Shown: positions 29,678-33,956 of the stretch, piece by piece
Position numbering within the stretch: the first letter of the stretch is position 1
How the letters are laid out: each line of letters begins with the position of its first letter
NCBI GenBank assembly: GCA_002861535.1
Contig: PHFO01000007.1
Span: 1 to 36,202, forward strand
Length of the DNA stretch: 36,202 bases
Reading direction: 5' to 3'
Origin: Cyanobacteria bacterium M5B4
Lineage (GTDB): Bacteria > Cyanobacteriota > Cyanobacteriia > Pseudanabaenales > Pseudanabaenaceae
Program-made: the position numbers and the translations under genes
Notes under the pieces: model-generated
What the model saw: only the letters and a program-made list of their open reading frames with translations
Told to the model about the DNA's origin: nothing
Database searches by the model: none

Positions 29678-30622
29678 TCATTGCCATATATCTAAGAGTG
29701 ATATAATTCTTGCCTCAGACATAACCTTGCGGTTGGCAATATCCTTTAGAGAGGAAAATTTCTGACTTTCTCTTGCAGATAAGATTTTAGTGACAATGCT
29801 TTCAGCATCTTTTTTCTTAAATCCACATTCAGATAACTTGTTCAGAATTTGTTCTCGATCTAAGCTGTTGAGGTCTTGGATGAGTTTTGTAACCCGATCG
29901 ATCGGCTTCTTCCCAGCTTTTTGTAACTCTATCTTTAGTTGTAGTATTGTTTTAACATTTTCTTCATGGAGAACCTCTAGTGTACTGATCTGGTTTTGTA
30001 GTTTTTCTGATAGCTCGTTAGACAGAACCTCTGAAACAGTCTCATCACTATTTCCCCTGGACTGTACTTGCTTGATGATTCTCTCCTCTTGTTGTCTCAA
30101 GATTTCCTCAATTGCAGATACATCTATCGCATTAGCACTAGTGTTAGAAGGAGTGATCTTTGTTTCCAGACTAGCATAATGATCTTCTAAGAAATTCTTC
30201 AAATCATCAAATATTTCTTTTCTGTTTTGATCGAGTTTAATTTGAATCTGGTCTTGAAAAATATTAATAATTTCTAGCTGGTGTTCGTCCATAAGCTCCT
30301 CAAAAGAGCTAGGATGTGTTCTTAGCTTTTCAATTTGTTCAAGTATAGCCTTCTCATTACTATCTTCCAAAATGATAGCTTGAATCATTTCTCCTTTAAG
30401 TGGAGATATTTCCCTTGCTTTTACTGCTGAATGATACTCTAAATGACCAGCAATTACTTCGTAGGATTCTAGTCCAGTGCGTCTAAGTATTATAGGATTG
30501 ATTACACCTTCCGTTTCAAGGATCAAATTGGCAATTCTCTGAATATCGTCAGCGGAAAACTTCGATTGACTCACATTGGAGGTAATCTTTTTAACAGGAA
30601 CTAGATTGATAGGCAGTTTCAT
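29678..30622 (-). CDS. Divergent ParB-like protein with coiled coil and C-terminal helix-hairpin-helix-like segment
   Basis: 314 aa; ParB/sulfiredoxin-like N terminus IQRIANLILETEGVINPIILRRTGLESYEVIAGHLEYHSAVKAREI; C terminus LDREQILNKLSECGFKKKDAESIVTKILSARESQKFSSLKDIANRKVMSEARIISLLDIW. Confidence 0.72.
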   Translation of the reverse strand: MKLPINLVPVKKITSNVSQSKFSADDIQRIANLILETEGVINPIILRRTGLESYEVIAGHLEYHSAVKAREISPLKGEMIQAIILEDSNEKAILEQIEKLRTHPSSFEELMDEHQLEIINIFQDQIQIKLDQNRKEIFDDLKNFLEDHYASLETKITPSNTSANAIDVSAIEEILRQQEERIIKQVQSRGNSDETVSEVLSNELSEKLQNQISTLEVLHEENVKTILQLKIELQKAGKKPIDRVTKLIQDLNSLDREQILNKLSECGFKKKDAESIVTKILSARESQKFSSLKDIANRKVMSEARIISLLDIWQ

Positions 30623-32116
30623 TTATGCTATTTTCCTTAAAACTTCTTGAGCAAGTTGCTTAAATTCTTTCGCTGAATCAGAATCAGGTTTGAAATCAAT
30701 AACGGATAGAGGATCAGGAATTTCTTTAATATATGAAGTTTTTTCATCGAGAATGGTCTGGGTCCTTTCAGAACATTTTGCCAGGTCTTCCTTTTCAGAA
30801 ATAATGGTTTCCATCAATTCGATTCCATAGCGTTTCATGACAGTTTGCATCCGATCTGGGAGCGTGTATTCTCGAAATTTAGCATTAGTAGAAATTTTCG
30901 TTGCCAAAACTCCCAATAACTGCAGGGGTTGCTTTCCAATAATTTTCCGAAATCCATTTACCTCGTTTATCAGGCTTTTTACATTGGTCAGTCCCTGATT
31001 AGCAAAAGGTTTTAGATCGGAGGGTATGATCAAGTAATCCGCAGCGATCAGCGCTATTCTAGCGAAAAGATTAAGGGATGGCGGCGTATCGATTATGACA
31101 ATGTCATAGTCATTTTCAACATCTAGTAGCTTTTTTATAAGAACTAATCGACTGTGATCAATATTGTTTAGATCAGACTCAGCCTTCATTAAGTCTATGT
31201 GAGAAGGGATGACATCAACTGTTGGAGTGGAGAAATTGGTAGTTTTTGCAACCTGTTTAATTGGGAAGAAATCTTCAGAGCTTAGGAGGTGCATAACATG
31301 ACAGTTTTTCAAAGTGTCGTCTGCTTCATCATCAAATTTGACTAATCCCACTGCAAAAGTGGTATTAGCTTGGCTATCTAAATCAATGATAAGAACTCTT
31401 TTCCCTTCTTTACTCAAAGCTGCCCCTAAATTGACAACGGTCGTGGTTTTACCTACTCCGCCCTTATTGTGGTAAACAGCAATCGTTTTCATCTTTTTCT
31501 CCTCAGTTGCAACTATAGGTTCAAATTCGGGAACAGGCTGGGGGGTGACTGCTAAGTCGGGAACTATTTTAACATTGTTCTCTTTATTTTTATCAATAAT
31601 TTGTGCAGATGAGCTAGTAGTCATTCTTGCTTGGGCAACTTCTGCCCAACCGATCAGGCTTTTAATTTCTGCTAAACGATCGGGTACTTCTCTGCCACTG
31701 CAACGAAAAACGATCGCTATATCTTTATCTTTTGGGGCTAGTATTCTAAAATCTTTGCCGTTAGTAAGCACTCCATAGTTGACAGATAACGATCGGATAT
31801 ATTTTTCCATCTTTCCTGTATATCTATTCAGGCTATGCTTGGGGCTTTTAGCTTCGATAATCAGAGCCAAGGGCGAATCTTTAGTAAATTTGTAAGGTAA
31901 AATCTGTTTGGTAAAGACTAAAAAATCGAGCCGAATACTACCTAAAGCTACCTCTTGATGCCAATTATGGGGACTGTAGCCGAGTGCAGGTAAAAGATAT
32001 TGGACGATGAACTTACTCTCAACTTCTGTTTCGTTACGGCAGTCATAGGGATTGAAAAATATAGGTTTATTCGGTTTATTCATCATAATTAGGCTGTTTT
32101 GGGCTAATTTCTGCAT
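30623..32116 (-). CDS. HsdR_N-like PD-(D/E)XK domain fused to ParA-family ATPase
   Basis: 497 aa; N-terminal NETEVESKFIVQYLLPALGYSPHNWHQEVALGSIRLDFLVF...LALIIEAKSPKHSL...YGVLTNGKDFRIL; C-terminal MKTIAVYHNKGGVGKTTTVVNLGAALSKEGKRVLIIDLDSQANTT...YDIVIIDTPPSLN. Confidence 0.85.
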   Translation of the reverse strand: MQKLAQNSLIMMNKPNKPIFFNPYDCRNETEVESKFIVQYLLPALGYSPHNWHQEVALGSIRLDFLVFTKQILPYKFTKDSPLALIIEAKSPKHSLNRYTGKMEKYIRSLSVNYGVLTNGKDFRILAPKDKDIAIVFRCSGREVPDRLAEIKSLIGWAEVAQARMTTSSSAQIIDKNKENNVKIVPDLAVTPQPVPEFEPIVATEEKKMKTIAVYHNKGGVGKTTTVVNLGAALSKEGKRVLIIDLDSQANTTFAVGLVKFDDEADDTLKNCHVMHLLSSEDFFPIKQVAKTTNFSTPTVDVIPSHIDLMKAESDLNNIDHSRLVLIKKLLDVENDYDIVIIDTPPSLNLFARIALIAADYLIIPSDLKPFANQGLTNVKSLINEVNGFRKIIGKQPLQLLGVLATKISTNAKFREYTLPDRMQTVMKRYGIELMETIISEKEDLAKCSERTQTILDEKTSYIKEIPDPLSVIDFKPDSDSAKEFKQLAQEVLRKIA

Positions 32117-32129
32117 CTAAGAATTGGGT

Positions 32130-33956
32130 TTAATCTAAATAAACAAAGCCATGATCATCAAATATTTTTTTGCCTTCTTGAGTCTGCAATAACCTTATGT
32201 AATTAGTAGCAGCCTGTACCGATCGGTTGTTGTTTTTATCGTAGGTGACAAACATAAAGCTGGTAATAGGATACATAGCACTTTTTATATCTGCTACATT
32301 GATTTTGCGGGGGCAATCTTGATTATTTAACACAGGAGAAATTGGTGGTTTTGACTCTGCACTAAGGGCAATAATTTTTACATTGCATTGTTTTCTCATT
32401 AAACCCAAAGAAGACCAAAAAACTGCTCCTGGTGTTTTTTGTAACAGCCTGAAGCCCTGGCTGGGATTGGAGACCCTGGTTACTGATTTTGGTAAATCCT
32501 TACTTTTAATATCTCCTAAAATAGATTTGGCTCCCTCATCTAATACTCCAGGGCGCACGATCGGTTTAATTGCTAAGTTATTCCCCCCTAATTCTTGCCA
32601 GTTTTTTACTTTGCCTGAATAAATATCTCTTAATTGCGTCAAACTTAAGCTAGAAATTTCGACACTGGGATGCACTGCTAAAGCTAAACCACCGATCGCT
32701 ACTTTTTGTTGGACTAAATCTATCCCCCTTTCTTTAGCTTTTTGCCAGATAACTTCCTCTAGGGGACGGGCAACTAGGGCAAAATCTACCTCCCCATCTA
32801 GTAACATTTGTACGGCTTTGCCACTGCTGGGCTGACCATCAATGGGATTTACATAGGACATAATCAAATCTGGATGATATTTCTTTAGCTCTGTTTCCAA
32901 GCTGTTTTTAACAAGAATCCAGCTTGTACCGCTACTAAATCTAAATGTTCCTTGGGGCAGTCCTTTACATTTTTGTATCTCTGCACAAGTATTGCGGTTG
33001 ATCAATTTAGGAAGAATAAATCCTCCCCCCAGGACTAGCATAGTTGCCATCGTTGCTAACCCGATCGGGAGCGGTTTTAATAACTTAAATAAAGGCGGAG
33101 GAGATGATACTAACTCTGTGGGTTGATGTAGCGCTACCTCTAATGTGCTGACCTCTAGGGCATTCAATACATCTTCAGCGGAAGCAAAGCGCTGTCGATA
33201 ATCCCGCTTTACCATTTTTTCTAAAATATCAATTAAATGGGGGCTAATTAAATTCAAATCTACACAAATTTGCCACTGCACTTCTCCATTACTATCTTCG
33301 CCAAAATGACTGGGCGGTACTCCCGTAAGGGCTTGAATTGCTAACATGCCTACGGCATAAATATCACTGGCAAATTTGGGTTTGCCTTGGGCTTGCTCGG
33401 CAGAAATATAACCGGAAGTGCCGATCGCTACTGATACATTGCTCCTGCCTGTGTCCTGCATTACTTGTTTAACAGCACCGAAGTCAATTAAAACTAATTT
33501 ACGATCGGATTTACGTCTAATAATGTTTTCTGGTTTGATGTCCCTATGAATTACGCCCCTATTGTGAATTGCTACTAAGATTGAGAGTATGCTTTGGAGC
33601 ATTTCTATTACTTGGGTTTCCTCCCAAGGTTTACTAGGTTCTAATTCATGACTGAGGGGATTGCCGTCTATAAATTCTTGGACTAGGAAAAATTCATTAT
33701 TTTCTTCAAAATAGGCGTAGAGTCTGGGTAATTGATCTAGGTCTCCTAGTTTTTCTAGGGTCTCTGCTTCACTGGCAAAAAGACGACGGGCTATGGCAAT
33801 AAACTCTGGGTCTTTACTTTGGGGATGGAGATGCTTGACTACGCAGGGAGGGTTGCCTGGTCGTTTTGTGTCTTCTGCGAGGTAGGTTTGTCCAAAGCCC
33901 CCTCTGCCTAGTAACTTCTTAATCCGATACCGTCCATCTAGCAGATTGTTGATCAT
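32130..33956 (-). CDS. Ser/Thr protein kinase (PknB-like) with TM helix and C-terminal PstS/PBP-like binding domain
   Basis: 608 aa; LLDGRYRIKKLLGRGGFGQTYLAEDT, GVIHRDIKPENIIRRKSDRKLVLIDFGAVKQV; TM LPIGLATMATMLVLGGGFIL; C-terminal DFALVARPLEEVIWQKAKERGIDLVQQKVAIGGLALAVHP...LTQLRDIYSGKVKNWQELGG. Confidence 0.9.
   Translation of the reverse strand: MINNLLDGRYRIKKLLGRGGFGQTYLAEDTKRPGNPPCVVKHLHPQSKDPEFIAIARRLFASEAETLEKLGDLDQLPRLYAYFEENNEFFLVQEFIDGNPLSHELEPSKPWEETQVIEMLQSILSILVAIHNRGVIHRDIKPENIIRRKSDRKLVLIDFGAVKQVMQDTGRSNVSVAIGTSGYISAEQAQGKPKFASDIYAVGMLAIQALTGVPPSHFGEDSNGEVQWQICVDLNLISPHLIDILEKMVKRDYRQRFASAEDVLNALEVSTLEVALHQPTELVSSPPPLFKLLKPLPIGLATMATMLVLGGGFILPKLINRNTCAEIQKCKGLPQGTFRFSSGTSWILVKNSLETELKKYHPDLIMSYVNPIDGQPSSGKAVQMLLDGEVDFALVARPLEEVIWQKAKERGIDLVQQKVAIGGLALAVHPSVEISSLSLTQLRDIYSGKVKNWQELGGNNLAIKPIVRPGVLDEGAKSILGDIKSKDLPKSVTRVSNPSQGFRLLQKTPGAVFWSSLGLMRKQCNVKIIALSAESKPPISPVLNNQDCPRKINVADIKSAMYPITSFMFVTYDKNNNRSVQAATNYIRLLQTQEGKKIFDDHGFVYLD

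Follow-up and report, generated by a model that had tools for sequence, protein, structure and literature searches.

The window, meaning the whole stretch of 36,202 nucleotides analysed here, is an entire contig of a 2.7 Mb draft genome in 389 contigs, and carries two tandem, co-directional genes on the (-) strand. Gene 1 (30623..32116, 497 aa), delimited by its open reading frame, Pfam matches and an alignment of 23 relatives, encodes an HSDR_N-type nuclease domain fused to a ParA ATPase, while Gene 2 (29678..30622, 314 aa), which occupies the +1 position in 52 loci of 21 families, encodes a partner with a ParB-like domain, a coiled coil and a helix-hairpin-helix (HhH) region. The ATG of Gene 2 comes directly after the stop codon of Gene 1, with no spacer; a preliminary description of this DNA had the reading frames and their coordinates right, but its term ‘divergent’ is wrong if orientation was meant. 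In relatives, a four-base overlap between the two genes is frequent, which suggests translational coupling. Since conserved N-terminal homology begins only near residue 21, the true start of Gene 1 may be M11 or M12.

The first domain of Gene 1 (residues 21-165; 31622..32056, (-)) is of the PD-(D/E)XK type, and its match to HSDR_N_2 in Pfam lies above the curated cut-off (E=8e-7); both HSDR_N and HSDR_N_2 are matched by all 19 N-domains sampled from the family, some of which also match other PD-(D/E)XK families. The residues E33, D64, E88-x-K90 and Y106 are kept in 40-41 of 41 proteins of the main subfamily and in 9/9 of a second, strongly diverged one. The best matches in the PDB are the restriction enzymes BpuSI and HsdR (3h1t), with which the E, D and ExK residues can be aligned and D and ExK are in register, the E-values of 0.37 and 0.52 being sub-significant and serving as a pointer only. 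Both the nuclease-type domain and the conservation of its catalytic residues, as put forward in the preliminary description, are thereby upheld. The AlphaFold2 (AF2) model of the fusion, built from a two-row alignment, reaches a pLDDT of 32, too low for the fold to be read from it. In the QxxxY motif the tyrosine is invariant, but the glutamine is present in 9/9 subfamily-2 proteins and in only 2/41 of the main subfamily, where R or K takes its place in the other 39. This substitution, together with the repeated loss of the domain described below, would be expected if HSDR_N were catalytically dead and served as a DNA-binding or dimerisation module; non-catalytic PD-(D/E)XK domains, however, usually lose the E/D/ExK residues, and the conservation of E33, D64, E88 and K90 in both subfamilies makes such a role very improbable.

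Across 11 related genomes, the nuclease domain has a dN/dS of 0.083 and ParA one of 0.049, against 0.83 in the proline-rich, variable linker that joins them (residues 166-208; 31493..31621, (-); delimited by alignment). The linker thus evolves fast, and strong purifying selection acts on the nuclease domain and so preserves it in the copies that have it. The ParA domain (residues 209-497; 30626..31492, (-)) is an intact ATPase that matches AAA_31 in Pfam with E=1e-54, and its deviant Walker A motif, KGGVGKTTT at residues 218-226, is invariant among the aligned relatives (n=23).

The partner begins with a ParB_N-like domain (residues 1-101; 30320..30622, (-)) whose Pfam match also exceeds the cut-off (E=2e-7), and a profile of the partner finds matches in two CTP-switch proteins, Noc (7ng0, 2.5e-6) and ParB. 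When the partner was searched by fold against the PDB, no match reached significance, and the top ones were mostly ParB, Noc, PadC and SbnI. The family nevertheless departs from canonical ParB proteins, in that GxxEYxAA stands in place of the canonical GERRxRA stretch, the GxxR arginine (position 4) is found in 0/50 partners, most of which have E instead, and the ParA-binding motif (L/F/I)G(K/R)G(L/F/I) is found in 0/58, both motifs as defined in PMC12704722. No helix-turn-helix (HTH) is recognised in the partner, the window protein has no match in NCBIfam at 0.01, and a tested subfamily-2 partner scores 31 bits against TIGR00180, the canonical ParB model, whose cut-off is 58.

The ParB_N-like domain is followed by a predicted coiled coil (about residues 104-235; 29918..30313, (-)), proposed from the sequence and helical in an AF2 model that, coming from a two-row alignment, is poor overall and of low confidence. 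The C-terminal region (residues 240-314; 29681..29905, (-)) is a degenerate HhH of the ComEA type; it goes unrecognised when the window protein is searched alone, but a C-terminal profile of 11 partners, the window one included, matches the solved HhH proteins AF1531 (2e-6) and ComEA (1e-3), a relative (L039) has a clear ComEA-type HhH (6e-7), and the AF2 model has a pLDDT of 72-80 over residues 251-290. The ParB-like HhH partner of the preliminary description thus stands. Across partners, this end is a degenerate HhH in most and Rho_N/SAP-like in others, and from such comparisons it appears to be an exchangeable DNA-binding end. Two partners, one of the main subfamily (L092) and one of the second (L108), have in common a distinct C-terminal module of about 70 aa (W-x-NL...SKDKI.GFAQ), a similarity that suggests domain exchange between the subfamilies.

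In the GTDB family of the window, the partner gene is present in 29 of 38 genomes and almost without exception follows a fused ParA. Of the 390 genomes sampled from the class, 103 give a match at E<=1e-50, and a manual count places a full-length fusion in about 60 of the 390, usually as a single copy and, for several, on multi-megabase contigs; the phylum sample adds one copy outside the class, which is frame-split. About 14 genomes carry the second subfamily, whose members combine HSDR_N_2 with ParA and whose partners combine a ParB-like region with a ComEA-like or SAP-like C-terminus (the latter read by eye). The partner is the next gene at 52 loci from 21 families, and because the two-gene arrangement is conserved across this number of families it is not due to chance, in agreement with the synteny that the preliminary description had looked to. 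At these loci, no neighbour other than the ParA gene and the partner is conserved across families. A conserved third gene was considered and rejected, coaX being found upstream only in close relatives: the operon lies behind coaX in 13 of these, where its locus is stable, and some related genomes have coaX with the operon missing at that place.

Searches of mobile elements identified no fusion at >80% of length among the best 5000 of 72,556 plasmid records, and none in 50,697 phage records, which led to rejection of a plasmid partition module; the homologues are not confined to plasmids, and the chromosomal setting outside replicon partition suggested earlier holds. The absence of the fusion from those best 5000 plasmid records, as well as the combination of ParA/ParB-like parts with an HsdR-type nuclease, would fit a system that recognises and cuts foreign ParA/ParB replicons. 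Against it, the hosts are plasmid-rich: canonical, mostly plasmid-type ParB genes average 1.9 in hosts vs 0.4 in fusion-free genomes, in a sample that is hand-picked and size-biased. The plasmid exclusion entertained in the preliminary description thus fares badly, and an anti-plasmid role is improbable.

The evolutionary history of the operon is one of movement and loss. In a tree of the ParA domains, presence of the nuclease domain changes about seven times and families are split up; the window copy has its closest relative in a Gloeomargaritaceae MAG (L039, the same gene as L070), and not in the large clade of its own family. Judging from this tree, the copies look horizontally transferred and the nuclease domain is repeatedly lost. 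True N-less operons keep ParA and the partner and encode no nuclease domain anywhere else at the locus, and the nuclease is therefore not the whole function. The tree places the two fusion subfamilies near each other and does not require them to have arisen independently; the result of a one-clade test is void, the named group having omitted L100_p7, a nested ParA of the N-less kind. Several genomes, one of them assembled as a single contig, have frameshifted or split copies; a programmed frameshift was rejected, the break points differing between genomes, which therefore indicates ordinary decay or assembly error. Taken together, the operon behaves as an accessory but selected element.

Two further arrangements are of note. 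At L095:5079-12665 both subfamilies occur in tandem, preceded by DUF2779-like genes (read by eye); here the main-subfamily ParA has no HSDR_N but is preceded, in the same fusion, by the C-terminal half of an SF1-type helicase, the nuclease-like/helicase N-terminal half lying frame-split in the next upstream ORF. The nuclease and helicase assignments here come from reading the sequence; on that reading, the arrangement again points to DNA processing. In addition, a gene for a plain ParA (about 300 aa) of a separate lineage adjoins the operon upstream in L071 (two copies), L074, L075, L076 and L080, which represent several families.

The parA-parB gene order and the intact deviant Walker A evoke the question of whether the operon is a derived ParAB that segregates or positions the chromosome, in which HSDR_N would aid DNA binding or resolve linked DNA and nuclease action would be secondary. 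Most host chromosomes have no canonical ParB, which occurs mainly on small contigs, operons deprived of the N-domain persist, and the chromosomal locus is stable in close relatives, all of which would be in line with such a role. On the other hand, the operon is patchy, being present, N-less forms included, in no more than about a quarter of genomes, and it is scattered relative to dnaN, a rough marker of the origin in cyanobacteria, lying anywhere between about 50 kb away and almost opposite. Moreover, the ParA-binding motif, the GxxR arginine and a recognised HTH are all missing from the partner, and under such a role the active-site residues of the nuclease domain would not need to be invariant. 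Segregation is thus considered unlikely, if distinctly less so than an anti-plasmid role.

The surroundings of the operon in the window are of a housekeeping nature, and include genes for DnaB, an S41 peptidase, a LeuA-like synthase, an RsmB-like methyltransferase and aminopeptidase P. A gene for a serine/threonine kinase fused to PBP_like_2 (phosphate-binding-protein-like; 32130-33956(-)) lies 13 bp upstream of the operon, and is not conserved as its neighbour in relatives. The segment 28001-34000, which spans an acsF-like gene, msrA, the operon and the kinase gene, has a GC content of about 36-43% vs 48% for the contig, and was possibly acquired. The enrichment in defence islands that the preliminary description had envisaged did not materialise around 25 loci, and membership in such islands is unsupported. 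The clearest defence-type context is an exception, L099:2557-12733, where an N-less copy lies amid GmrSD-like, type IIG-like (large methylase/restriction-like) and toxin-antitoxin-like genes, identified by eye.

A link to phages comes from a single cyanophage contig (L162:6001-6306; IMGVR_UViG_3300042471_001765), which also encodes portal, MuF-like, amidase and ThyX-like genes. It contains a stand-alone ParB_N of 101 aa that is 55-56% identical to host partners and ends where their coiled coil begins; the record encodes no ParA of the operon’s family, and a lone ParB_N of this kind was found in this one phage only. From its sequence, the gene is a candidate decoy or counter-defence factor and gives a hint of host-virus conflict. 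It could thus be suggested, tentatively, that the operon is an anti-phage system in which the ParA switch gates the HsdR-type nuclease and the sensor would be the ParB-like HhH partner, with cyanophages countering the system through a lone sensor N-terminal domain. The nuclease-type domain, the pattern of transfer and loss and the phage ParB_N argue for this idea, whereas the absence of island enrichment around the 25 loci, the housekeeping neighbourhood in the window, the stable coaX locus in the 13 close relatives and the occurrence of the phage gene in one record argue against it. The anti-phage role raised in the preliminary description is possible, the phage gene being its sole direct hint, and it is through this gene that the idea of conflict becomes directly testable.

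The reading that we favour, at roughly even confidence, is that of an accessory, chromosomal two-protein module for DNA processing, in which a ParA-gated nuclease is steered by a ParB-like DNA-binding adaptor. In its favour are the near-invariance of the E, D, ExK and Y residues across deep divergence, the purifying selection on the nuclease domain, the accessory behaviour of the operon and the persistence of the gene pair across 21 families. In general, ParA dimerises on DNA in the presence of ATP, and PD-(D/E)XK domains frequently work as pairs. In the proposed mechanism, the partner would gather on particular DNA by means of its swappable C-terminal end (HhH or Rho_N/SAP-like) and its coiled coil and, once gathered, would engage ParA; ATP-driven dimerisation of ParA on DNA would then pair two HsdR-type nuclease domains, so that cutting or nicking would be gated by the ATP cycle of ParA and steered or triggered by the partner. 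Nuclease activity, ATP gating and DNA targeting are all properties that we infer for the module. Its likeliest use, held at slightly below even confidence, would be in genome conflict, most likely with phage rather than plasmid; maintenance or repair of the host’s own chromosome ranks behind it and seems somewhat unlikely. If this module works as proposed, the ParA switch, known for positioning, could also power an effector that cuts DNA, and a function would be assigned to an operon that a good many cyanobacteria possess, mostly ones with no canonical ParB on the chromosome.

No described system with this nuclease-ParA and ParB-like make-up was found in the open-licence literature, which agrees with the earlier suggestion of an undescribed system. 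The closest survey, that of non-canonical ParB-CTPase-fold proteins by Kaljevic et al. 2025 (PMC12704722), includes proteins that likewise join a ParB_N, its nucleotide motifs altered, to different C-terminal domains; the sole fusion that its main text gives as consistently adjoining parA is a DUF3850 fusion, and neither a nuclease-ParA pairing nor an HhH partner was found in that text. Among catalogued defence families, the one match is to the PADLOC candidate PDC-M28B, which is weak and limited to the ParA part (5e-10), with the nuclease domain and the partner unmatched. In common with ParABS, the operon has a gene for a ParA ATPase with one for a ParB_N-domain protein behind it, and its partner profile resembles Noc/ParB structures; it differs in the nuclease domain borne by ParA, in a partner that ends in an HhH or Rho_N/SAP-like region and has none of the canonical motifs discussed above, and in having no consistent link to the origin and no occurrence among the best 5000 of 72,556 plasmid records. 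By these sequence criteria, the operon is not a canonical ParABS. The N-domain has the E...D...ExK...Y motifs of the N-terminal nuclease of type I HsdR (HSDR_N, PF04313/PF13588), but is joined here to ParA and not to an SF2 helicase, and neither HsdM nor HsdS recurs at the loci, where the partner is the only recurring gene. The anti-plasmid complexes MksBEFG/Wadjet also associate a DNA-associated ATPase with a nuclease, as the proposed module would, but employ an SMC-type ATPase and an unrelated nuclease subunit, with no ParA or ParB.
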